Source of the DNA: a virus
Reading direction: 5' to 3' (one strand)
Virus record (IMG/VR): IMGVR_UViG_3300033145_003233
Span: 372,001-436,000 of that record
Length of the DNA: 64,000 nt
Below are positions 1,964-58,864 of this stretch, piece by piece. The notes beneath the pieces are model-generated. The model made no database searches, was not told where the DNA came from, and was given only the letters and a program-made list of their open reading frames with translations. The translations under genes were made by a program, and so were the position numbers. Each line of letters starts with the position of its first letter. The first letter of the stretch is position 1.

Positions 1964-3025
1964 TTAAAATGGATTGATTCTTTTATATATATGATTCGAA
2001 AACTTTTTTAGCAACTCTTGCCTTTCATTATAAGAAAGATCTTTTGTCTTATTTAACCAATTTCTACCCTGACATAAGACAACTTTTCCACATCTAAATT
2101 TTATATCATAATATTCATATTCATGCCACGCCTGGCCATATTGACAAGTTATGGACCATCGTTCTGTGTCTAATATTTTTTCGGAGATCCGCAAAGGATT
2201 CCCAATAATCCTTCTTACATCATTTTCGGTAGAACCGACTATGATATAATTCAATTTTGAGGTATAAATAGAAAAATCTTTATGGGCTTTTTTGAAATTT
2301 TCTTCTTCCATTTTTCTTATTTCTCCTATCCTCTTCTTCGCTATCCCCTCCTTTTGTTTATATTTTGATATATCGGAATAACCACTTTTTATTATCTCAC
2401 CATTATTTATCCATGCCTCGAAACCATCATCCCATATAAGATATATCTTATTATTGTTTTTATCGTATTCATAACAAATCCCAACGTTATTGCTGTCTAC
2501 GACCAAGACTCTATTCTCATTTTTATCATACCAGCACTGCCACCCATCTGCCCATTTAACATAAATAAATTTACCATCTACAGTTTTTCTATGCTCGTAA
2601 CCATCAGAAATCTTATAATAAATTGGATTATTACTTTTATCATATTCCCATTCCCACTGCTTATATCCATCAGATTCTTTTTGATAAATTTTATTATTAT
2701 TTTTATCATATTCAGCCCATATCTCATACCCTTCTGGGGACTTCTGATAGATGCAATTTTTACGAGTATCATAATTTTTTATATACCCTATAGCAGAATT
2801 ATATGACCCCACACCTACACTCTTAGTTCCTATCTTCCCAGTATAGGGATTTATATTCCCTTTAGTGCTCCAATTATTATAAGGATTACCATCAGGATTT
2901 GACCTATAGTGAGGAGCTACATAAGTCCCATTTTTGCGATAATATCCCTTAACACTAACATCAGCCATAAGAAGAGAAGTAGCTAGAGACATCATAATAA
3001 CTATTAAAATTATTAACTTTTTCAT
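1964..3025 (-). CDS. Secreted protein with YRKNGTYVAPHYRS domain and DGY/YDKNNN repeats
   Basis: Starting at the ATG preceded by AAGGAA, the protein has a typical export signal (MKKL followed by a long hydrophobic run, likely cleaved near LLMA) and no lipobox cysteine. Next comes the GYYRKNGTYVAPHYRS / NPYNNWSTKGNINPYTG block, common in small secreted bacterial proteins. About five degenerate repeats of W/Y-DK-N-N-KIY...DG[YFW]E follow. The C-terminal part (IVGSTENDVRRIIGNP) resembles the SmpA/OmlA-like fold. A start 27 bases upstream is possible but lacks the SD site. It has its own promoter and a terminator-like hairpin upstream, so it looks like an independent cargo gene. Function unknown. 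Confidence 0.75.
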   Translation of the reverse strand: MKKLIILIVIMMSLATSLLMADVSVKGYYRKNGTYVAPHYRSNPDGNPYNNWSTKGNINPYTGKIGTKSVGVGSYNSAIGYIKNYDTRKNCIYQKSPEGYEIWAEYDKNNNKIYQKESDGYKQWEWEYDKSNNPIYYKISDGYEHRKTVDGKFIYVKWADGWQCWYDKNENRVLVVDSNNVGICYEYDKNNNKIYLIWDDGFEAWINNGEIIKSGYSDISKYKQKEGIAKKRIGEIRKMEEENFKKAHKDFSIYTSKLNYIIVGSTENDVRRIIGNPLRISEKILDTERWSITCQYGQAWHEYEYYDIKFRCGKVVLCQGRNWLNKTKDLSYNERQELLKKFSNHIYKRINPF

Positions 3026-3087
3026 TTTGCTGTTCCTTATCAATTTTTCCACAATATTATCTTAATCTTAATCTCAATCTCAACATT

Positions 3088-3116
3088 ATTATATATTAAA
3101 TTGCTTTCACTTTCAA
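3088..3116 (-). promoter_or_regulatory. Promoter, TTGAAAGTGA class
   Basis: On the minus strand, TTGAAA (3116-3111) followed by GTGA, a 17-base spacer and TATAAT (3093-3088), about 60 bases upstream of the secreted-protein start. It is one of a repeated family of such sites in the window. Confidence 0.7.
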
Positions 3117-3142
3117 GAATTTTTTCATATTTTCAAAAATAA

Positions 3143-3159
3143 AGGAGGATTTTCCTCCT
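3143..3159 (-). terminator. Hairpin, possible terminator of minus-strand read-through
   Basis: Perfect 7-bp inverted repeat AGGAGGA/TCCTCCT with a 3-base loop. On the minus strand it is followed by TTTATTTTTG, a U-rich tail. It lies just upstream of the promoter at 3088-3116, a sensible place to stop transcription arriving from the def/radical SAM operon. Confidence 0.5.
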
Positions 3160-3216
3160 AAACTCATAATTATATAGGTAGAAAAACATAACAAATATAT
3201 TTAATAGGAGATAAAT

Positions 3217-3465
3217 ATGAGATATTTTAGATTAGTATTAAGTGAAAAACGAGGAGAATATTACTTTGACAGTATCCACGAAAAATTCGTCCACGCACAA
3301 AACAGAAATAAAGCATACAAAAAAGCTCTAAAAATAGCTGCCACATTCTTTAAAAACTATAAAAATGCTCCAACAGGAATTCCTGATGAAGATACTATCT
3401 TTTGGTTTAATGGTGATTATGCAGCTATCTGGATAAACGATTTAAAAGAAATTGAAATGATCTAA
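3217..3465 (+). CDS. Small hypothetical protein
   Basis: 82 residues with a good Shine-Dalgarno (AGGAGATAAAT-ATG). It begins MRYFRLVLSEKRGEYYF, has a lysine/alanine-rich central helix and an acidic, aromatic C-terminus. No family recognised. It is the first gene of a short plus-strand island lying between the two halves of the intein-split radical SAM gene. Confidence 0.6.
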   Translation: MRYFRLVLSEKRGEYYFDSIHEKFVHAQNRNKAYKKALKIAATFFKNYKNAPTGIPDEDTIFWFNGDYAAIWINDLKEIEMI

Positions 3466-3533
3466 ATTATGAAATTTCACAATCTTTTACGATATAATAA
3501 TGACAATATTATGTAATAAAATAGGAGTAAAAA

Positions 3534-3683
3534 ATGAAAGATTGTAAAACCATTAGGATAGATGTCCCAACAGAGCTTCATGAGCGACTAAAAAAAAGTG
3601 CAAAAAAAGACTATGGCAATATAACATCTGTCGTTAGGAATTTAATAGTTCAATACGTTAAAGAAAAAGAGAAAGAGGGATAA
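3534..3683 (+). CDS. Ribbon-helix-helix protein paired with HNH nuclease
   Basis: 49 residues. The strand TIRIDVPTELHERLKK is followed by a helix-turn-helix-like SVVRNLIVQYVKEK, the pattern of MetJ/Arc/CopG DNA-binding proteins, which bind operators as dimers. SD is AGGAG. Its stop overlaps the start of the next gene (TAATG), so the two are translationally coupled. At least three similar RHH genes precede nucleases elsewhere in the window. Likely role, inferred: repressor of its own cassette. Confidence 0.75.
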   Translation: MKDCKTIRIDVPTELHERLKKSAKKDYGNITSVVRNLIVQYVKEKEKEG

Positions 3684-31409: not shown

Positions 31410-32516
31410 TTAAATTTCGCCCCAACCAATTTCCCCGGTCTTAAGATGTTTAGGGGCCGAAGACGCCTCGGAAGGCAAATCATCGTAATCATCTAAATTA
31501 TCTATAATTTCTTTATCAACTACTTTATCTACTCTATCTACTTTATCTACTCTATCTACTTTATCTACAGAAGAATAAGTTGCACTAGACAATGCCCTCT
31601 TCTTCCTTCTATCTATCCTCTCAGCAGGAGGAAGCTCCATGCATATAGTAATTTTTCTACTAAAAGTATCATAAGCAGAAGCAAAATTTTTCTCAGCAGT
31701 AATAATAGAATTATGCAAACCTTCTAACCTACTTAGATATAACTCAACATCTCCCATATGTTCAAAAACAAGACCATCTTGCCTAAGACTAGGCTTAAGA
31801 TATTGCGCCCTCGCCAAAATTCCCCTCAATTCTTCTGTAAACCTTTTAAATTGATAGAATTGATTATTAACCCGAACCCCTATATACTTAACCCTCTCAC
31901 GATATTGTTGCACCTCTTCCATATATACAATTATTATAGTTGGGTCAAAAACCTCACTCGCCATATCTACCTTACCATCTGCCAACTCGTTTATCCATCT
32001 TGTGTATTCTATCTGACCTCCTGGTAAATGATTAAAAAGCTTTCTCTTATGTCGATAAAAACCATTATACATAGGAGCTGGACTTGTTAAAAACCACTGT
32101 ACCTTATCATCAATGATCATGGGTTTTTCTTCCTGCACTTCATTATCAAGAGCATCCGTACTCTCCACAACATTTTTAACAACAGCAACTGGAGGTATAA
32201 AATTATCCAACACATCTTCTTGCTCTTCTTGCTCTGTCTCCATTTCTATTTCTATTTCTACTCCATCATCTATTTCCACTACATTCTTTTCATCATCACC
32301 GATAGAGCAAACATCCTTAACAATATCATGAGGATTCTCTTCATCTCCTGAAATTTGACTTATATCTTCTCTAATATCTTCTGTAAGTTTCTGAAAAGAC
32401 TCTTTAGGAACAGCACCATGCCCATCATCTTCTACCTGAGAACCACTATCCTTACCTGATGGCAAGTCAAATATATCTTCAAAATATTCTATATCTATTT
32501 CTTTTTCTTTGGCCAT
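31410..32516 (-). CDS. Hypothetical acidic protein in replication cluster
   Basis: 368 residues. The first 130 are highly acidic and disordered (for example EIEIEMETEQEEQEDV). The central 170 residues form a folded domain starting VQWFLTSPAPMYNGFYRHK with many aromatics. A VDKVDR hexapeptide repeat follows (DNA repeat 31521-31568), then an acidic end GEIGWGEI. No family recognised. Placement between dnaE C-half genes and SSB suggests a replication accessory. Confidence 0.55.
   Translation of the reverse strand: MAKEKEIDIEYFEDIFDLPSGKDSGSQVEDDGHGAVPKESFQKLTEDIREDISQISGDEENPHDIVKDVCSIGDDEKNVVEIDDGVEIEIEMETEQEEQEDVLDNFIPPVAVVKNVVESTDALDNEVQEEKPMIIDDKVQWFLTSPAPMYNGFYRHKRKLFNHLPGGQIEYTRWINELADGKVDMASEVFDPTIIIVYMEEVQQYRERVKYIGVRVNNQFYQFKRFTEELRGILARAQYLKPSLRQDGLVFEHMGDVELYLSRLEGLHNSIITAEKNFASAYDTFSRKITICMELPPAERIDRRKKRALSSATYSSVDKVDRVDKVDRVDKVVDKEIIDNLDDYDDLPSEASSAPKHLKTGEIGWGEI
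31521..31568. repeat. 18-bp tandem repeat, about 2.7 copies
   Basis: Unit TACTTTATCTACTCTATC repeated exactly, encoding VDKVDR in the 31410 gene. Pure repeats of this kind expand and contract by slippage. Confidence 0.85.
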
Positions 32517-32528
32517 AATCCTCGCTCA

Positions 32529-32807
32529 TTAATCAAACATATCAATTTCATCTTTAGGCGTTTTACTGGTTTTTTTTACCTTAACGCTACCTATACATCT
32601 ATCGACCTTAAGGGTTGTAACCACCTCATTATATGTCTTTGTAAAATCTTCTATCAGAATATCTGTAATTTTATTAGTTTTTTCTTCCCTTTCTCCTGGA
32701 TTCTCCCATTCAATTTCTTCCTCTGCCTCCACTGTAATCGTAACTTGCTCAAATTGTTTCGTTTGTATTCCTCTTACTATACTCTTTTTAATTTTAGACT
32801 TACCCAT
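32529..32807 (-). CDS. Small hypothetical protein with acidic aromatic tip
   Basis: 92 residues: basic N-terminus MGKSKIKKSIVRG, strands QVTITVEAEEEIEW, and a terminal KDEIDMFD that resembles SSB-type peptide tips. No family recognised. In the same minus-strand run as the SSB-like and DnaE genes. Confidence 0.5.
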   Translation of the reverse strand: MGKSKIKKSIVRGIQTKQFEQVTITVEAEEEIEWENPGEREEKTNKITDILIEDFTKTYNEVVTTLKVDRCIGSVKVKKTSKTPKDEIDMFD

Positions 32808-32818
32808 ATTATTTTCCC

Positions 32819-32980
32819 CTATTTAATTTGAACATTTATAAATTCAGCTTTTACATCAAAAACCATATTACATTCCCTACATTCGTGAACCTCAACAAAC
32901 TGACCATACTCGATACAACCAGAATTACCGATAAGCTCCAGCTCTCCACTCTCACACTGAGGACACTTTATCTTATTCAT
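32819..32980 (-). CDS. Small zinc-ribbon protein
   Basis: 53 residues from the ATG after GGGGAA: NKIKCPQCESGELELIG and VHECRECNMVF give two CxxC knuckles. Ends in VNVQIK-type strand. Function unknown; possible RNA-polymerase or DNA binding. A longer frame to 33019 would run through the promoter at 32991-33019. Confidence 0.6.
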   Translation of the reverse strand: MNKIKCPQCESGELELIGNSGCIEYGQFVEVHECRECNMVFDVKAEFINVQIK

Positions 32981-32990
32981 AGGTTCCCCA

Positions 32991-33019
32991 TATATAATAT
33001 AATGGCTATCACTTTTCAA
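32991..33019 (-). promoter_or_regulatory. Promoter, TTGAAAAGTGA class
   Basis: Minus-strand TTGAAA (33019-33014), AGTGATAG, 17-base spacer, TATATA (32996-32991), within the last codons of the DnaE C-half gene and ahead of the zinc-ribbon gene. Confidence 0.6.
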
Positions 33020-34998
33020 AACAAATCCTCAAACATATCCACTGATTCTATTTTCTTTTTCGTTGTTTTTTTACGATCTCTCCTGATCATCAAAAAATCT
33101 TCCATCATTTCTTCCTTACGATCTATTTGCTTTTTCCCGAAAAATCCCGCTTCGATTAAAGCCTCCACCGCTCTAGTATCTACAATAGAAGAATCAGTTT
33201 TATTCACTATATCCCTCATGCCGCTATAAGGCTGATTGTCCTCTATATGCTTAGCCGTATTTGCTCTCATTCCCTTACATAACAAACTAGGTCTTATCTC
33301 TGTCTTTTTTATCCCGTTTTTTTCATCTTTTCTTTTTTCTATAACATATTGAACCTTCGATTTATTTATGTCTCTAGGAAGGAATTTGATATTCATTTTC
33401 CTTTTAAACTCTTTCTCAAAAGCATCTATTTTATCATATCTGTTTCCCTGAGAACCATTAATAGTCACATCTAACAAAGAGCAAATAAATTCATCAGGAT
33501 AATTAGCTTTCAAAAATGCCGTAGTATAAGAGTTGTATCCATAACAGGCACTATGAGCTAAATTAAATCCATACGAAGCAAATGGAGTAATAAATTTAGT
33601 CCAGTATTGTTGAGCTACATCCCTTGGAACCTTATTATCTATACATCCATCAACAAACTGTTTTTCAAACTTAGCCATAAGATATTCTTTTTTCTTTCCA
33701 ATGGCCTTAATCATTACATAACCATCTGTAATAGTAAAACCAGCTAAGTTGCTACATATCTGCATCACTTGTTCTTGAAAACACAAAACCCCATAAGTCT
33801 TTTTTAGATAAGACTTTACAAAAGGCTCAATTGACTTGTGGAAATAAGTTACTTCTTTTTCTCCGCTCTTCCTATCACAATATTCTGGAATACTATCCAT
33901 TGGACCAGGACGATAAAGAGCCAAACCAGCAACAATATCTTCAAAACTATCAACACCTATACTTCTCATGGTATGTTGCATACCATAATTCTCACATTGA
34001 AAAACTCCACCCAAATTACCATCTCTATATAATTTAAAAGCTCCCGCGTCATCAATAGGGAGATTCTCCAAATCAATTTCTATCCCCCAATAATCTTTTA
34101 TTTTTTCTACTGTTTTCTTAATTACCGTCAAAGTGGCAATAGCTAGAACATCAAATTTAATCAACCCCAAAACTTCTAAATCTTCATTAGGAAATTGGGT
34201 TGCCAGCACCCCCTTCTTAGCATTTCTTAATGGAGCTATTTCATTTAAAGGAATATTAGAAACAACCACGCCAGCCGCATGAAAACCGAAATTAGCGAAT
34301 GTGCCTTCGATCACCTCCATATACTCTTTTATACCTGTATCTTCGTACTTATCTATATAATGTCTAAAATCTGGACAATGCTCATAAGCATCATCGAAGG
34401 TTTTAATAAGATGACTATTCCCCCCTTCATCTTTAACTTTAAGCAAGCCATATTTCGGAAATGGTGATAAAATTTCAGAAGCCTTAGCAGCATTTTCGCT
34501 TATATAGGAATCTTTTCCTTTATGAAAAGCATCTGCGATATCTAGTGCTTTAACCACCCTAGTAACACATGATTTAAATTTTAATAAACCATGAGTACCT
34601 ATATTCCCAACATTCTCTCTGCCGTACTTATTTATAATATAACTATATACACCATCCCTATTCTCATAATCAAAATCAGTATCTATATCAGGCAAGCCAG
34701 CTCTAGCAAAAGCACGTCTGGTGGGGAGGAAATCTCCCGATGGCTTAGTTTTAGTCATACCAAGAAAATAGGCCGTCCAGCTATTAATATCATTCCTATT
34801 ACCAGCTTTTTTATCATGATTTTTCCATATATTGTAAAAAACTTCCAAATTATTCCTAGATTCCAGCCCCTCTGTAGTTTCCATTAATTCCATTTCTCGC
34901 TTTGCTTTTGAAAGAATTTTGGATAAATCAGAATGATCAGCGTATTTTCTCTCCACCGCCTCTATGATTTCTAACTTAATTACCCTCAATTCTGCCAT
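33016..34998 (-). CDS. dnaE: DNA polymerase III alpha, C-terminal part of palm and fingers
   Basis: 660 residues. After about 110 lead residues comes LPDIDTDFDYENRDGVYSYI with the first two catalytic aspartates, then KFDVLAIATLTVIKK with the third, RPGPMDSIPEYCDRKSGE, YGVLCFQEQVM, FNLAHSACYGYNSYTTAFLK and KFLPRDINKS. It lacks the beta-binding, OB and tau-binding tail of bacterial DnaE. The PHP and first palm segment are on the separate gene at 36979-38391. Ends VDMFEDLF, an acidic-aromatic tip. SD GGGGAGA. Confidence 0.93.
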   Translation of the reverse strand: MAELRVIKLEIIEAVERKYADHSDLSKILSKAKREMELMETTEGLESRNNLEVFYNIWKNHDKKAGNRNDINSWTAYFLGMTKTKPSGDFLPTRRAFARAGLPDIDTDFDYENRDGVYSYIINKYGRENVGNIGTHGLLKFKSCVTRVVKALDIADAFHKGKDSYISENAAKASEILSPFPKYGLLKVKDEGGNSHLIKTFDDAYEHCPDFRHYIDKYEDTGIKEYMEVIEGTFANFGFHAAGVVVSNIPLNEIAPLRNAKKGVLATQFPNEDLEVLGLIKFDVLAIATLTVIKKTVEKIKDYWGIEIDLENLPIDDAGAFKLYRDGNLGGVFQCENYGMQHTMRSIGVDSFEDIVAGLALYRPGPMDSIPEYCDRKSGEKEVTYFHKSIEPFVKSYLKKTYGVLCFQEQVMQICSNLAGFTITDGYVMIKAIGKKKEYLMAKFEKQFVDGCIDNKVPRDVAQQYWTKFITPFASYGFNLAHSACYGYNSYTTAFLKANYPDEFICSLLDVTINGSQGNRYDKIDAFEKEFKRKMNIKFLPRDINKSKVQYVIEKRKDEKNGIKKTEIRPSLLCKGMRANTAKHIEDNQPYSGMRDIVNKTDSSIVDTRAVEALIEAGFFGKKQIDRKEEMMEDFLMIRRDRKKTTKKKIESVDMFEDLF

Positions 34999-35022
34999 AT
35001 AAATCTCCCCTACGTCAGCTAT

Positions 35023-35051
35023 AGAATATCCGATTCCCTTTCACTTTTCAA
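35023..35051 (-). promoter_or_regulatory. Promoter, TTGAAAAGTGA class
   Basis: Minus-strand TTGAAA (35051-35046), AGTGAAAG, 17-base spacer, TATTCT (35028-35023), upstream of the DnaE C-half. Implies the two polymerase halves are transcribed separately. Confidence 0.6.
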
Positions 35052-35264
35052 CTATAAATCTAAAATTTCGAATCTCAACCCAATATCTGAAACGATATCT
35101 CCATATCCCCTAATAGAAATAGGAGGTTGAAATCTTTTTTCTTTCAACTCGGATACGCTAATAGTGGGAGTAACAAACAATGGAGTATAAGGGACATATA
35201 TATATGCCTCCCCTAGAATATCTCCTCCTTTAAAACCAAGCCGGATTTGACTAGCTGTAGCCAA
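35052..35264 (-). CDS. Small protein with C-terminal RFEILDL tag
   Basis: 70 residues: beta-rich body (SQIRLGFKGGDILGEAYIYV, VTPTISVSELKEKR) and the final LRFEILDL followed by TAG. SD GGGGGAG. No family recognised. One of three tagged or tag-related small genes lying between the two DnaE halves. Confidence 0.6.
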   Translation of the reverse strand: MATASQIRLGFKGGDILGEAYIYVPYTPLFVTPTISVSELKEKRFQPPISIRGYGDIVSDIGLRFEILDL

Positions 35265-35282
35265 TGTTTTACTCCCCCTCTT

Positions 35283-35513
35283 TTATAAATCCAAAATTTC
35301 AAACCTACTTTCTATAGGTTCCCATTCCCACATTATTGATGACCCATAAGGGACAATTATAGAACCAAGAGTTGTTCTTAACCTCATATATTCCAGCATC
35401 ACATCATGGGGAATCTCTCCCCTCCCATAATATTTTATCATCTCTTGAGTTCTCTCGTCCTCAAAAAATTCAACTTTCCCATTAATAGATATCTTAATAT
35501 CTGTCAACGCCAC
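35283..35513 (-). CDS. Small protein with C-terminal RFEILDL tag
   Basis: 76 residues: LTDIKISINGKVEFFEDE, a helical middle, GSSIMWEWEPIESRFEILDL at the end. It begins within the last codons of the 35494 gene. No family recognised. Confidence 0.6.
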   Translation of the reverse strand: MALTDIKISINGKVEFFEDERTQEMIKYYGRGEIPHDVMLEYMRLRTTLGSIIVPYGSSIMWEWEPIESRFEILDL

Positions 35514-35826
35514 CTAAGTCATCCTCTAATTCATGCTCATGCGAATCATCATTTAAGTCAGAAAAATCCATAGCTCGAACAATATTCCCGATATGGTTAG
35601 CCAGTACAGGGTTTTCTGCCTGCATTTCCTCTATCGTATATCTATCTTTCATCCACCGATTCTCCATTTTTTTATCATCGAAAAAAACATACATACCCTT
35701 CCTAAATTCTGATTTATCGCCAAATTTAGTGTACACTAAGATTCCCCCATCCTTAATTTCTTCACGACTCACTATCTCTGTCACTCCTCTTGACCCATCA
35801 TCAAATTCATATCCTATATACAACAT
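35494..35826 (-). CDS. Small protein sharing C-terminal ELEDDLGGVDRY with the DnaE N-half
   Basis: 110 residues with a small-barrel-like start (LYIGYEFDDGSRGVTEIV, GILVYTKFGDKSEFR). The final 12 residues ELEDDLGGVDRY are identical to those of the DnaE N-half at 36979-38391, though codons differ at many synonymous positions. This suggests a shared interaction peptide rather than recent DNA copying. Function unknown. Confidence 0.6.
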   Translation of the reverse strand: MLYIGYEFDDGSRGVTEIVSREEIKDGGILVYTKFGDKSEFRKGMYVFFDDKKMENRWMKDRYTIEEMQAENPVLANHIGNIVRAMDFSDLNDDSHEHELEDDLGGVDRY

Positions 35827-35858
35827 TCTATTCTCCTAACTTTTATTAATATTATCTT

Positions 35859-36896
35859 TCAATTTTTTATATGCTTCTTTAATTCCCAAATTGCTCTCTT
35901 ATATCTCGGCATAAATGTCTCATATTTACAATCCCCAGGTTTAACAGTCCTTAAAGTTATTCCAAGTTCTTTACATTTTTTACGCTTTCTCTTATCTCTA
36001 TCTTTTTGTTGCTTTAGCTTACTTTCTCCATGAATAGGTTTATAATGAAAGTTCCCACTAACCTCTACTGCATAATTTATATCAGGGAAATAAAAATCTA
36101 GCTCTAAAGGAGCAACAACTGTTCTATTATTTCTATCATATTTTACATTCAGTTTTTTAACCAATTTTTCAAACTGAGTCTCTACAAATGATTCTTTAAA
36201 TTTATACTTAGCGAAACATCTAATAGAACAAAAATGATGCTGATTCCTTTTAACATAAATAGGGGATTTAAAAACATTTTTATCGCATCCGTCACATTTT
36301 ACCCGAATTTTATTATTCTGAAATTCATTACAACACTTTTTTGAGCAAAATATATTATCCTTCCCCCTTAAAATGCTAGGAGATCTATATAAAATCTTAT
36401 CACAATTTTTACAATATACTCTCATTCTTTTATTATTATTGTCACTCCTGCATTTGATCGAGCAACAGTGAGTGAGGCTTCTTTTTCGTTCTGCTGAATT
36501 TTTATAAAAGTTTTTCCCACATACCTCACAGGCTACACTATTAATCCTTTGATAATAACTGGACTTACACTGCATATTACAAAAATATATATCTGTTTTA
36601 TTATCATCCCTCTCTCTCTTACATCTGTAAATAGATTTATGACAATTAGAACATCTTACTTCATTTTTTTCTATTTTATGCTTCGACAAACATATTTTAT
36701 TACAATAATGATGCTTAGACTTTTCTAAATATTTTTTTCCTCTCCTATTTTTTTTACCACAATAATCACAGTCTATTATTTTCGATCCCTTAATATCATT
36801 AGCACAATTCCTGGAACAACAATTTGTTTTACTTTTTAATATATGTGACAATTTTTTATAGAATTCTTTACCACAATAATCACAGTCTATAAGCAT
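35859..36896 (-). CDS. Homing-type endonuclease: zinc-finger array plus Vsr-like domain
   Basis: About seven short zinc modules (C[DE].C.K.FY.....H.CS..C...) occupy residues 1-230. The final 110 residues form a Vsr-like nuclease: VETQFEKLVKKLNVKYDR, ELDFYFPDINYAVEVSGN (D and E-x-S active-site strand), then FHYKPIHG. Dassa and colleagues described Vsr-related free-standing homing nucleases in genes broken by split inteins; this one likewise lies in the gap of a split dnaE, though no intein remains here. Confidence 0.8.
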   Translation of the reverse strand: MLIDCDYCGKEFYKKLSHILKSKTNCCSRNCANDIKGSKIIDCDYCGKKNRRGKKYLEKSKHHYCNKICLSKHKIEKNEVRCSNCHKSIYRCKRERDDNKTDIYFCNMQCKSSYYQRINSVACEVCGKNFYKNSAERKRSLTHCCSIKCRSDNNNKRMRVYCKNCDKILYRSPSILRGKDNIFCSKKCCNEFQNNKIRVKCDGCDKNVFKSPIYVKRNQHHFCSIRCFAKYKFKESFVETQFEKLVKKLNVKYDRNNRTVVAPLELDFYFPDINYAVEVSGNFHYKPIHGESKLKQQKDRDKRKRKKCKELGITLRTVKPGDCKYETFMPRYKRAIWELKKHIKN

Positions 36897-36978
36897 ATTT
36901 CTTATCTCCTATTGAAAAATAAATGTTCTCAACTATTATTAAATACAATTTAATAGGAGATAATCCCTCTTTTATTTT

Positions 36979-38391
36979 TTAATAACGGTCTACTCCCCCA
37001 AGATCATCTTCTAATTCTCTATCTACATCTCCTTTATCGGCGGCTTGTTGAATAAGGTTTTCCTCAAAGCCAAAATCTGACTCTTTTATAAACTTGAGCG
37101 AATCAAACCCAAGGAATCTCTCCCACAACAACCCATGTTCTATAGGGTCAATCCCATATGTAATCCCCAAACACCTCAACAAGACACTCGCATAACCCGA
37201 TCCACGCCCACAACCAACTAATATACCTCGTTCTTTGGCATCCTGGATATAATCTCGAACAATCAAAAAATAAGTCGAAAAATCATAATTATTACTTTCC
37301 TGTGCTACCAAAACATCTTTTAATTCCAGTTCTAATCTTTCAACATGTTTTTTACTATTATTCCATCCTACAGTCTTCATGCCTTCCCATGCAAGACGAC
37401 ACAAATATTCATAAGCATTTTTATATTCAGATGGAATTTCAAATTTGGGCAACCTCATTCCCCCAAATAAATTTTCTTCTATGTTCTTGGTATCTATTCG
37501 TTCAGCCAGCATAACAGAATTAGATAAACAATTAGAAGTGTTATTAAATATCTTCGCCATTTCTTCTGCACTTTTAAGATAGAACTCCATATGACTAAAA
37601 CTCAACCTGTCTGGATCTTTAACGCAACGTTGTTGTGACATGCACATTAAAACTTCTTGAGATTGGCCTTCTTTTCCAATTATATAGTGCCCATCATTCG
37701 TGCAAACTACAGGAATATTTAATTCAGAGGATAGTTTAAAAATTAAGGGGATAATCGCTTTCTCTTCCCTGATACCGTGGTACATTACTTCTAAAAAGAA
37801 ATTCTTATTAAATATCTCATTAAAAGTCCCGCATATCTTCTTTGCTCTATCATAGTTGCCATATACCAAATTGATATTAATAACACTTGATAAACAAGCA
37901 GAGCTACACATCACTCCCTCAGAATGCTTAGCCAGCAAATCTATATCAACTCTTGGATCAAAATAAAAACCATCAGTATATGACTTCTGAGACATACGAC
38001 ATATATTCTGATAACCCTTAAAATTCATAGCATATAAGTTGATATGCCTGTTTCCCCTTCTCCCATCAGGTTGGTTCTTTTTAGTTTTTTTAGTATCTTT
38101 TTTTTCATCGTATTGCCCTATATCCATTTTTCTAGAAAGATACATCTCACACCCAAGTATGGGTTTGATAGGAGCATAGGGAATACTATTGCCTTTTTTA
38201 TCTTTTGTGATACGACAATGTTGAAGGAATTTAATCCATCCCATAACAGACCCATGATCTGTTAGGGCAATAGCAGGAAACCCCATTTGCCTAGCTTTCA
38301 AAACAAGCTTATCAATTTTCGCGAGACCATCAAATTGGCTATACTCAGAATGTACGTGCCAATGAACAAAATCTTTATTTTCAAATTTCAT
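36979..38391 (-). CDS. dnaE: DNA polymerase III alpha, N-terminal PHP and first palm part
   Basis: 470 residues. FVHWHVHSEYSQFDGLAKID opens the PHP domain, with LTDHGSVMGW and GCEMYLSR following. The palm begins at GILVGCGRGSGYASVLLRCL, runs through DPIEHGLLWERFLGFDSLKF and stops before the catalytic PDIDTDF, which is on the 33016-34998 gene. The tail ends ELEDDLGGVDRY, shared with the 35494 gene. Neither half alone contains a complete active site, so the two must associate. Confidence 0.93.
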   Translation of the reverse strand: MKFENKDFVHWHVHSEYSQFDGLAKIDKLVLKARQMGFPAIALTDHGSVMGWIKFLQHCRITKDKKGNSIPYAPIKPILGCEMYLSRKMDIGQYDEKKDTKKTKKNQPDGRRGNRHINLYAMNFKGYQNICRMSQKSYTDGFYFDPRVDIDLLAKHSEGVMCSSACLSSVININLVYGNYDRAKKICGTFNEIFNKNFFLEVMYHGIREEKAIIPLIFKLSSELNIPVVCTNDGHYIIGKEGQSQEVLMCMSQQRCVKDPDRLSFSHMEFYLKSAEEMAKIFNNTSNCLSNSVMLAERIDTKNIEENLFGGMRLPKFEIPSEYKNAYEYLCRLAWEGMKTVGWNNSKKHVERLELELKDVLVAQESNNYDFSTYFLIVRDYIQDAKERGILVGCGRGSGYASVLLRCLGITYGIDPIEHGLLWERFLGFDSLKFIKESDFGFEENLIQQAADKGDVDRELEDDLGGVDRY

Positions 38392-38394
38392 CTT

Positions 38395-38562
38395 TTACCA
38401 ATTCCAATTATCTAAACATTTAACGCAGAACGACTCAAATTCTTCCCTTGTAAGATGAGAATCAGGAGTGACTAATCTATGAATTGCCTTTCCTTCATCT
38501 AAATCCTTATAAGAAATGAATCTGCCGCAAAACTCACATCTTATTCGTTCTACTTTTTTCAT
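38395..38562 (-). CDS. Small zinc-finger protein
   Basis: 55 residues from an ATG overlapping the stop of the tagged gene upstream (TTATGA). CEFCGRFISYKDLDEGKAIH and ESFCVKCLDN give a Cys4 zinc site. Unknown role; three bases from the DnaE N-half start. Confidence 0.6.
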   Translation of the reverse strand: MKKVERIRCEFCGRFISYKDLDEGKAIHRLVTPDSHLTREEFESFCVKCLDNWNW

Positions 38563-38918
38563 AAATCTAAAATATCCCACCTCGTTATATCATCATCTAT
38601 ATCTAATATTTTATGCTTTTTTGTGGTAGCATTAATCTCTACAACATGAGCAAAGGGGACTCTCTTCATTGTGGTCTTGACCCCCTTTTTGAAAGCTAAT
38701 AAATCAAGAGTTTGATCTTCGTATATTTTTAAAACTCTTACTTTCTCAAAATCTAAATTAAAAAAATCTTCCTGATGAGGAAGCCACTTCTTCATAGTCA
38801 TAGAAAATTCTATTCTATGATCATAAAGATTTTTAAAAACAATCTTGATAGTATCTATGTCTGACAACTCTTTATTGAAAATAGTTGTAACTATATGTTC
38901 TCGTCTAATAAATCTCAT
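38559..38918 (-). CDS. Hypothetical protein with C-terminal RWDILDL tag
   Basis: 119 residues from ATG 38918 (the frame also opens at a TTG nine bases earlier). Strands IDTIKIVFKNL, RIEFSMTMKKW, KVRVLKIYEDQTLDLLAF indicate a beta-sheet protein. It ends ITRWDILDL with TGA overlapping the next ATG. No family recognised. Confidence 0.6.
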   Translation of the reverse strand: MRFIRREHIVTTIFNKELSDIDTIKIVFKNLYDHRIEFSMTMKKWLPHQEDFFNLDFEKVRVLKIYEDQTLDLLAFKKGVKTTMKRVPFAHVVEINATTKKHKILDIDDDITRWDILDL

Positions 38919-38920
38919 CT

Positions 38921-39181
38921 TTAGCAATGCTTCGTAGGATCGTATCTCTCCCTATGACCATCTTTAAATCTAATGTACTTCGGATTTTGTTTTTTAACAT
39001 AATTAGAATCAGCTTCAAAACACTCTCTATCACCTCTCCATCCCCTAATATTCTTGGGAACTTTTATTCTTATACATTTTGTCCCATCAGGAGCATAAAA
39101 AGGTTTATTAATCTTTTTAAATGGTCTTATTTCCTCAAAAATTTCTCCCGTCTCTGGATGTTCAAATTCGTAAATTGGAAT
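38921..39181 (-). CDS. FmdB-like small protein with ATT start
   Basis: 86 residues. From an ATT codon the product reads I/M-PIYEFEHPETGEIFEEI, then KPFYAPDGTKCIRIKVPKNI, matching the MPIYEF...AxDG.KC.RI pattern of phage FmdB-family zinc-ribbon proteins. GGGGAG lies 7 bases before the ATT, exactly where an ATG would stand. There is no ATG, GTG or TTG in frame nearby. Lacks the usual CxxCG pairs. Neighbours 39194 (upstream) and 38559 (downstream) are tightly spaced, so the frame fills an otherwise empty 260-base gap. Confidence 0.7.
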   Translation of the reverse strand: MPIYEFEHPETGEIFEEIRPFKKINKPFYAPDGTKCIRIKVPKNIRGWRGDRECFEADSNYVKKQNPKYIRFKDGHRERYDPTKHC

Positions 39182-39193
39182 TATTTTTCTCCC

Positions 39194-39724
39194 CTATAAA
39201 TCTAAAATATCAAACCTAGAAATAGATTCCCCTTTAGATTTCTTTTTCCTTTTCTTTTTTACTTTTTTCTTTGATTTTTTCGCTGCCTCAGTCGGAGAAT
39301 CTGGAAAAACCGTGTTCCACTCTATCCCACTAACATGACCCTCATTATATGGTTCACTCAATGTCGAAGAAGATATAGTGAAGCCCGAAGAAAAATGGAC
39401 AGGATTATTAAAATGAATTTGAGAGTTAGCAGTCATATTGATATAATTACCAGAGCTATCCTCGACATATGGCTCAATATGGATAGGATTCTCAGACATT
39501 TGCAATTCACCCGTTTGCACAGTAAGATTAATAGGCAACTGCTTTTCTATTACAAAATTTTTATTTTCAGAAAGATTAAATTGTAAAAATTCTAAAAAAG
39601 TTATACCGGAAACACAACTTTGCATATCATCATGCAAAGTTAAATATTCTGCACGAATATCTAAATAATCTTGTTCTTCATTAAAAACAACTGAGAGATT
39701 TTCTATATTATGCGAATAACTCAT
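39194..39724 (-). CDS. Hypothetical beta-rich protein with C-terminal RFDILDL tag
   Basis: 176 residues. Alternating strand pattern (KNFVIEKQLPINLTVQTGEL, HFNNPVHFSSGFTISSS) resembling virion or adhesin surface proteins. It is followed by the lysine tract KKSKKKVKKKRKKKSKG and SISRFDILDL. Lysine tract plus tag suggests localisation to nucleic acid or packaged head content, which is speculation. Confidence 0.6.
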   Translation of the reverse strand: MSYSHNIENLSVVFNEEQDYLDIRAEYLTLHDDMQSCVSGITFLEFLQFNLSENKNFVIEKQLPINLTVQTGELQMSENPIHIEPYVEDSSGNYINMTANSQIHFNNPVHFSSGFTISSSTLSEPYNEGHVSGIEWNTVFPDSPTEAAKKSKKKVKKKRKKKSKGESISRFDILDL

Positions 39725-39725
39725 T

Positions 39726-39974
39726 TTACAAATCCAATATTTCTAACCTAGATAGACCTTCTTTTCTATCTGGGGAACTTTTAATTTTCACCATAAAATC
39801 TTCGTATTGACTCAAAGATTGCTCCATCTCATATATCATATCAAACAACACGGTATTAGGTTGATCTAATATTTGATCTACCTCCTCAATAGTTAATCCA
39901 TGAAATCTGGCGAAAGATGAGACACCTAATAGGAAGAATATCTCACTAAAACTGCGACCGTGCTGATCACCCAT
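39726..39974 (-). CDS. Small helical protein with C-terminal RLEILDL tag
   Basis: 82 residues, all-helical (SEIFFLLGVSSFARFHGLTI, FDMIYEMEQSLSQYEDFMVK). Ends LSRLEILDL. It starts in the TAATG of the metallopeptidase stop. No family recognised. Confidence 0.6.
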   Translation of the reverse strand: MGDQHGRSFSEIFFLLGVSSFARFHGLTIEEVDQILDQPNTVLFDMIYEMEQSLSQYEDFMVKIKSSPDRKEGLSRLEILDL

Positions 39975-40765
39975 TATAAATCTAAGAGGTCAAATCTATC
40001 ACAGTTGTCCTCTTCTCCCCTATAATCCGTCCCTTCCTCTAACTTATCGGAATATATCCCCATAATTTTCCAACCCTTCTCCATAGCTAACTCCTTGGCC
40101 CTCGTAAAAATCCTTCTCCCATATTTTCTTTTAAATTCTTTGTATTTAAATTTGCTATATGCATTATAATGCCTAGTCTCTATTTTTTCCATTGCCAGAA
40201 TATTTCTTGTCGCTTCATCATAAGATATATTCATCAAATGCGGCAAAAAATTATACTTAATTATATGTTCATCTGAATGACCATTACTCCTTAAATATCC
40301 TATTGACCACCCATATGCAAATTCCTCCCTAATCTCACTACTAACAGAACGATGCCCCAAAGCAACATAACAATAATGACACAATTCATGAACAATAACT
40401 TCATCTTTACTTACCTTTGCCTCTATATGATAAGTTCTATTGACAGGAGTTGAGGAACGATGAGCACCACACAACACCACTATCTTCGTAACAGGGTCAT
40501 AGAAACCCTCCACTCCATGATATCCCATTCTATCCATGTCCCTGGCAGCAACTTTGAAAACCACTACATCTTTTACACTGGCCCCTGGAAATAAAGCATC
40601 TACATAATCATAAGCCTTTTGAAAATCTGTGTAATATATTTTCTTGAGAGCTATTTTTCTAATCTTTTCGATATTTTTTTGAGTTAGCTCAAACTGCTTC
40701 TTCGATTCTTGTCTGAAACCATGATCATACAAATAAGAATGAGATAAACTAGTAGCTCTAAACAT
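39974..40765 (-). CDS. Zinc metallopeptidase-like protein with C-terminal RFDLLDL tag
   Basis: 263 residues. VIVHELCHYCYVALGH carries an HExxH zincin motif with a downstream EEFAYGWSIG as possible third ligand, preceded by a helical N-terminus. Resembles ImmA/IrrE- or SprT-like zincins only in the core. It ends CDRFDLLDL. As the only tagged gene with a recognisable catalytic motif it may help explain the tag, for instance as a co-localised protease. Overlaps 40765 by 1 base. Confidence 0.65.
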   Translation of the reverse strand: MFRATSLSHSYLYDHGFRQESKKQFELTQKNIEKIRKIALKKIYYTDFQKAYDYVDALFPGASVKDVVVFKVAARDMDRMGYHGVEGFYDPVTKIVVLCGAHRSSTPVNRTYHIEAKVSKDEVIVHELCHYCYVALGHRSVSSEIREEFAYGWSIGYLRSNGHSDEHIIKYNFLPHLMNISYDEATRNILAMEKIETRHYNAYSKFKYKEFKRKYGRRIFTRAKELAMEKGWKIMGIYSDKLEEGTDYRGEEDNCDRFDLLDL

Positions 40766-58008: not shown

Positions 58009-58036
58009 TTGAAAGTGAAAATATAAATGTTAAAAT
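58009..58036 (+). promoter_or_regulatory. Promoter-like, TTGAAAGTGA class, plus strand
   Basis: TTGAAA (58009-58014) then GTGAAAA and, 16 bases on, TAAAAT (58031-58036), which overlaps the ATG of the first tagged gene in this island. Implies a very short leader or a later start. Confidence 0.45.
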
Positions 58037-58361
58037 GGCATCTATGTTTAAAATCGAAGAAGAAATTCAACTAACAAAAAATGGAGATTTTTTACAAAGT
58101 TCTAAAGAACTTAGAGAATACTACACCCCTAGAACTATAGGCTATCATAAATATTGCGATTCAAATCGATCAAAAGATTCTTTCATGTATTTACACAGAA
58201 CATCAAAACAAAAAAATACCATCTTTTGTAAAAAATGTAATTTTAGAATTGAGATACCCCTAAAAGTAAATAATTTCAAAAAAATAAAAAAATATTTTGA
58301 AAATAGATTTGATGATCCAATTGATAGAATCCAAGACAGATCAGAAATTTTAGATTTATGA
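58035..58361 (+). CDS. Zinc-finger small protein with C-terminal SEILDL tag
   Basis: 108 residues. GYHKYCDSNR and TIFCKKCNFRIEIPL form a His/Cys zinc site; a basic-acidic helix follows and the end is DRSEILDL, a variant with Ser for Phe. TGA overlaps the next ATG (TTATGATG). No SD upstream. Confidence 0.55.
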   Translation: MASMFKIEEEIQLTKNGDFLQSSKELREYYTPRTIGYHKYCDSNRSKDSFMYLHRTSKQKNTIFCKKCNFRIEIPLKVNNFKKIKKYFENRFDDPIDRIQDRSEILDL

Positions 58362-58864
58362 TGAAACTCGAAAAAGATTTTATACAATGTTGTGCAGAAT
58401 TTTTATTCAAAATAGCTGATTTTGAAGACTATGATGATAAACACTATATTAGTATGGGCCACGGGGATGGAGAACACCTTTGTTTTAAGTGTTGTGAAAA
58501 AGAAGTCGAAAAAATTAATAAAGAATTGCCCGAGAATGAAGAAAAAGCTTTTGTAGATGGAGGATGGAATGGTGCGGGTATTGACGGAAATGATGAAGGA
58601 CCTGATTCCTGTGATATATGCTATAAAAAATTAGATTATTCTTTATCTGAAAGTGGAGTTATACAAGAATGTAAATTTTTCTTAGAGGAAGACTTAGTAG
58701 AAATAACTCCGAATAATGCTGCTGAACTATATTATCTTTTCGACAATAGTGATAATTATGATTTTCAAGGTAATGACTTAAATAAATTGACAAAATTAGC
58801 CAATAAAATTTGGCGTCTTTTAGATCAAACAATTGAGAGTAGGTTTGAGATTTTAGATTTATGA
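58358..58864 (+). CDS. Zinc-binding protein with C-terminal RFEILDL tag
   Basis: 168 residues. Cysteines in HLCFKCCEKEVEKIN and DSCDICYKKLDYS suggest a zinc site around an acidic, glycine-rich core. Helical C-terminal part (NDLNKLTKLANKIWRLLDQT) leads to ESRFEILDL. Stop TGA overlaps the next ATG. No family recognised. Confidence 0.6.
   Translation: MMKLEKDFIQCCAEFLFKIADFEDYDDKHYISMGHGDGEHLCFKCCEKEVEKINKELPENEEKAFVDGGWNGAGIDGNDEGPDSCDICYKKLDYSLSESGVIQECKFFLEEDLVEITPNNAAELYYLFDNSDNYDFQGNDLNKLTKLANKIWRLLDQTIESRFEILDL

Follow-up and report, generated by a model that had tools for sequence, protein, structure and literature searches.

A phage replicase gene divided within the palm, with a diverged second copy of a palm segment opening its C-terminal half

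In cyanobacteria, DnaE is encoded by two genes and carries a split intein. Fractured genes in which split inteins occur together with Vsr-like endonucleases were reportedly described by Dassa and colleagues in 2009. The only close case that we found in the literature on split phage DnaE without an intein is that of the group 2.2 jumbo phages, whose minimal Pol III alpha is split into an NTP-binding and a Mg2+/template-binding protein that, according to the proposal made there, come together as a single enzyme (Iyer et al. 2021, PMC7824862). Phage polymerase genes are also interrupted by endonucleases (PMC12363816) or by a split intein with an HNH (PMC6892783). A phage ribonucleotide reductase is reportedly split by a homing endonuclease gene, and both products still work (cited in PMC10448857). 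DnaE is likewise annotated as two genes in Rossellomorea phage phiT1, but there the break lies past the third aspartate, and as two CDSs overlapping by a few bases in Corynebacterium phage P1201.

The window analysed here is a stretch of 64,000 nucleotides (positions 372,001 to 436,000) of the metagenomic IMG/VR virus record IMGVR_UViG_3300033145_003233, which has 547,943 bases. Two open reading frames on its minus strand together encode a DnaE. The N-half (36979..38391, 470 aa; PF02811, 7.9e-43) comprises PHP and the first part of the palm with GRGSG (37195-37209), and the C-half (33016..34998, 660 aa; PF17657, 3e-47, and PF14579) comprises a lead, the catalytic palm, the fingers and HhH. The domain matches end the N-half ahead of the catalytic strand and place PDIDTDF (34672..34692), which holds two catalytic aspartates and is invariant in alignment A5, in the C-half with the fingers and HhH; the third catalytic aspartate, D283 in IKFDVLA (34150-34152), lies in the C-half as well. 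A first-pass annotation had claimed a palm divided between GRGSG and PDIDTDF in two genes about 2 kb apart, and the reading frames and domain matches bear this out. All features of a family C DNA polymerase (PHP, GRGS, three palm aspartates, fingers and HhH) are present when both halves are combined, in two ORFs with 1,980 nt between them and not in a single chain. NCBIfam TIGR00594 is covered from 1 to 391 by the N-half and from 394 to 916 by the C-half, so the halves essentially lack nothing. The PHP metal-ligand-like residues of the N-half (HxH, DH, E, H and DxH) appear intact, and on this basis the N-half is predicted to bear, perhaps, its own proofreading nuclease. The C-half is preceded by a Shine-Dalgarno-like GGGGAG. 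Separate promoter contexts for the two halves, as annotated at first, are unsupported, since promoter-like sites were no commoner than in shuffles (24 versus 30.9 expected); the halves and the four genes between them all share one strand.

The break resembles that of the jumbo phage system in separating NTP-binding from Mg2+-binding parts, here GRGSG in the N-half and PDIDTDF in the C-half. In that system, however, the polymerase is minimal and its distant genes occur beside PolB, whereas here PHP is present, the genes are 2 kb apart, no PolB was found and the two pieces contain overlapping palm copies. As in cyanobacteria there are two genes, but there is no intein at the break and the pieces would stay separate. 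The fractured genes with split inteins likewise have a Vsr-like nuclease in a broken replication gene, although intein halves are lacking at the present break. The split ribonucleotide reductase is similar in that two peptides appear to sustain an essential function with no splicing. In that gene the nuclease caused the split, whereas the present nuclease is among many occupants of the gap, and the two DnaE pieces overlap.

Neither intein blocks nor a second polymerase, both named in the first-pass annotation as evidence that would speak against its reading, were found. No intein-domain family matched in either half, in agreement with its claim that intein halves are missing at the break. Searches of the whole record returned no PolA or PolB, and the Pol III alpha core family was matched there by these two halves alone. 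Because the record is metagenomic this absence is no proof, and the phage may have a second polymerase or use that of its host, as the record may be incomplete. With a divided palm, no intein halves and no second polymerase found, assembly without splicing is nevertheless the best reading, as that annotation had held, and the two chains would then pair. We consider it likely that the replicative DnaE of this giant phage consists of two non-covalent chains that assemble without splicing and arose by partial duplication, with the palm copy coming from the N-half.

A first hint that the halves overlap came from PF07733, which the N-half matches at positions 1-97 and the C-half at 69-260, so that positions 69-97 are matched by both. 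The homology of the C-half lead was revealed by MAFFT, which in alignments of full DnaE with the halves repeatedly set the lead onto the GRGSG segment. When the C-half was searched by tblastn against annotated phages, and its first 130 residues against bacterial genomes, the matches extended N-terminally to residue 66-77, the place at which GRGSG stands in intact DnaE. The two halves match overlapping parts of MT837784, the N-half 2437-3591 and the C-half 934-2532, with 96 bases in common. Sixteen leads aligned by hhalign to canonical segments of intact DnaE scored 40.15 over 78 columns, compared with at most 17.5 for 100 column shuffles and 11.1 for the reversed lead. By these comparisons of sequence, the C-half lead of about 100 residues (residues 1-102; 34693..34998) duplicates, in diverged form, the palm segment at the end of the N-half (residues 346-430; 37102..37356), the latter being the canonical segment of intact DnaE with GRGSG inside. 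At the site of GRGSAAGSLVAYxLGIT in canonical DnaE, the second copy has GNKNDINSWTAYxLGMT. The halves thus overlap because the C-half opens with a second palm copy that has lost GRGSG. By hhalign the lead matched the canonical intact-DnaE segments alone and not the N segment of its own clade, which indicates that the two palm copies have drifted apart. The first-pass annotation had proposed inspecting the lead for leftover intein sequence; this duplicated palm segment, which had gone unnoticed there, is what the lead contains instead. No precedent for an overlapping, motif-less palm copy was found in the literature. It is this copy that is the new element, a two-piece Pol III alpha being already known.

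The proposed origin is a partial duplication inside dnaE, either in tandem or via an integrated circle carrying an internal dnaE fragment. This would have left an upstream piece without the 3' part and a downstream piece without the 5' part, with genes between. The two products would complement each other, the N-half supplying PHP and the GRGSG palm segment and the C-half the three catalytic aspartates, fingers and HhH. The active site would use the palm copy of the N-half, and the second copy may help the C-half to fold, shield the open palm or aid docking of the N-half. The gap would later have held changing cargo, here the Vsr-like nuclease.

A different assignment of roles is that the second copy forms the working palm, leaving the N-half as a PHP subunit whose GRGSG segment is regulatory or a leftover. 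The second copy is itself well conserved and leads directly into the catalytic strand, as this would require. In every split member, however, GRGSG is retained in copy 1 and missing from copy 2, and RGSG of the N-half is conserved in 16/16 split members, as are the three aspartates of the C-half. An AlphaFold2 model of the C-half (62 rows) had a pLDDT of 91.7 and a pTM of 0.78 and matched Pol III alpha 2hnh with a Z of 26.3 over 503 residues (rmsd 5.0). This model matches Pol III only past the lead, most of its Pol III alignments beginning at residue 91-104; the residues before 97 were barely tested, and the outgroup rows in the AlphaFold2 alignment started at PDID by design. Residues 1-91 were mostly confident and 92-101 disordered, with the placement of the lead coming from few rows. 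In the predicted model the lead forms a small helical unit of its own, which hints that the palm position is left to the copy of the N-half. In the structure comparison no Pol III chain beyond the expected ones covers the lead, and this does not imply a novel fold. We therefore regard a working palm formed by the second copy as unlikely. The joint folding of both halves that had been recommended at first was run through the relative L014, with its TAG read as Q, but gave a poor model (pLDDT 59.8, pTM 0.37) that was discarded.

Relatives were collected from IMG/VR scans (44-75% identity) and their ORFs sorted by profile. Comparing break points in other phage DnaE genes, as had also been suggested, showed the same break in 16 members: the window and 15 other contigs (L003, L004, L005, L006, L011, L013, L014, L017, L088, L091, L092, L096, L098, L099 and L102). 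Since 15 other contigs share it, the break is no chance event or assembly artefact, and its recurrence in other phages makes the layout look like a stable mode of building the enzyme rather than damage. In a core-column tree the split members form one clade with L012, L015 and L016 (SH-aLRT 100). The spacing from GRGS to PDID, 39-44 residues in intact DnaE, is 155 in L015, which has both palm copies within one chain, and 51 and 56 in L012 and L016, respectively. In the latter two, ERFLAF is joined to a second-copy-like VFARPGFPDID. Both fall inside the split clade beside L092, which suggests that they were re-fused; re-fusion is the favoured reading, although the alternative was kept by an AU test (p 0.28). 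One clade thus contains intact, tandem, split and apparently re-fused relatives, and with them natural split points of a family C replicase that evolution has already tested. It becomes directly testable how an active site that is essential can be divided, kept functional and healed.

The gap holds four genes, all on the minus strand and as first annotated: one of 345 aa (35859..36896; zf-FCS) with a zinc-cluster array and a Vsr-like (EDxHD-type) nuclease domain, one of 110 aa (35494..35826) with the same 12-residue end as the N-half, and two of 76 aa (35283..35513) and 70 aa (35052..35264) that end in RFEILDL. The nuclease matched PHROG 559 at 1.4e-14 and PHROG 9084, a homing endonuclease, at 7.3e-8. 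A joint profile with the nucleases of L003, L017 and L088 had I-Bth0305I (3r3p) as its best PDB match, a weak one (E 0.06). The gap nuclease is a probable homing endonuclease. Single-sequence scans returned no relatives of either the nuclease or the 110-aa gene.

A nuclease with homing-endonuclease relatives in the break, together with the ribonucleotide reductase precedent (cited in PMC10448857) and an HNH nuclease gene in the break of L042, raises the idea that insertion of the Vsr-like nuclease broke dnaE. The 15 relatives that share the break argue against this: among their palm breaks and the present one, the zinc-array nuclease occurs in the present gap alone. Insertion alone would also leave the overlap of the halves unexplained, and we judge this origin improbable. 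The nuclease had been tied to the break in the first-pass annotation, but the same break in relatives holds other genes or none. As gap occupants differ between relatives, the nuclease does not define the break; it is a passenger and no fixed part of it.

The gap of the polymerase acts as a slot for cargo genes. Small tagged ORFs occupy it in L004, L006, L013 and L088, a ClpP-like protease in L005 and L099, and a dCMP deaminase in L102 and, by sequence, L033. A D12 adenine methylase and another ORF, which has no family match, are found in L091 (7368-8710), L096 (7187-8601) and, by sequence, L017 (2638-4004); in these three the two may be a restriction-modification pair. Cargo is lacking in L092, with a gap of 39 nt, and in L014, whose halves are parted by one stop codon (0 nt). 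This TAG is an ordinary stop, as 9/25 long ORFs of L014 end in TAG.

Reading the sequences of L003, L017, L088 and L013, we observed that their C-half appears broken again at FGC/HAAG by intein-like halves (L003 3789-8580, L088 8557-12563, L017 4012-7281, L013 5929-8404). Between these halves in L003, L017 and L088 is a zinc-finger and Vsr-like nuclease, an arrangement similar to the one attributed to Dassa and colleagues. L003 and L088 seem to carry one more intein.

It is very improbable that the two halves at the palm break are spliced, whether by an intron that escaped recognition or by a split intein, diverged beyond recognition, in the N-half tail and C-half lead. Inteins and intein-like halves do occur at other DnaE sites in relatives (e.g. 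L003, L017 and L088), and some phages combine split DNA polymerase genes with group I introns (PMC12363816). But the lead is palm sequence, intein families were not found, nor introns by Rfam in 32500-39000, neither would fit into the 0 nt of L014 or the 39 nt of L092, and the N-half closes with a conserved GGVDRY at its stop codon. End-to-end joining would also give a product with both copies, which is the state of L015.

The split also occurs outside the main clade. In L033 and L042 the split lies at the corresponding site; their placement with the main clade was rejected (AU 1e-45), and L042 groups clearly with the intact L034 and L044. The same break and overlap are seen in L219, L247 and L275, which the tree places at a great distance from the main clade. 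Their lead is their own: it scored 59.97 with the canonical segment (no shuffle above 18.8) but only 15.55 with the lead of the main clade. Five changes of the split state are needed on the C-core tree, gains and losses pooled, and well-supported branches force at least three of these. With this distant lineage, its own lead and the changes on the tree, the split architecture probably arose repeatedly and had more than one origin. A broader proposal, possible but tentative, is that the palm of phage replicases was divided repeatedly, in independent events, by an overlapping duplication, with loss of GRGS in copy 2, a gap that serves as a cargo slot and a motif-less copy that acts as a folding aid or placeholder. 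If so, the motif-less copy would let the catalytic half exist alone, and polymerase activity would depend on subunit pairing. By sequence, the gap of L275 contains a ThyX-like ORF, and the N-half of L219 carries intein-like sequence.

GGVDRY (36982..36999, minus strand) forms the C-terminus of the N-half after a variable linker, and GG[VI]DRY terminates 11/16 N-halves in the same way. The whole record has two instances of GGVDRY only, at the ends of the N-half and of the 110-aa gap gene (ELEDDLGGVDRY, 35497-35532). The records of 14 relatives each have the corresponding DNA pattern no more than once, at the N-half end, apart from one further site in G012 where no listed ORF ends. The 12-residue ends of the N-half and the 110-aa gene are identical although 7/12 codons differ, every change being synonymous, and it is therefore the peptide rather than the DNA that is conserved. 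A docking peptide is the natural guess for GGVDRY. Another idea, for which the codons are ambiguous, is that an insertion left behind an old tail of the N-half, which now ends the 110-aa gene.

Across the whole record, numerous small and otherwise dissimilar proteins end in [RK][FWL]x[IL]LD[LI], with examples in the window at 35052-35513, 38559-38927, 39194-40765 and 58035-59181. There are 29 strict DNA matches in 548 kb, with varying codons, versus none for the reversed pattern. Our guess is that this ending, which also occurs in L004, L088, L006 and L013, could be a common C-terminal docking or targeting peptide.
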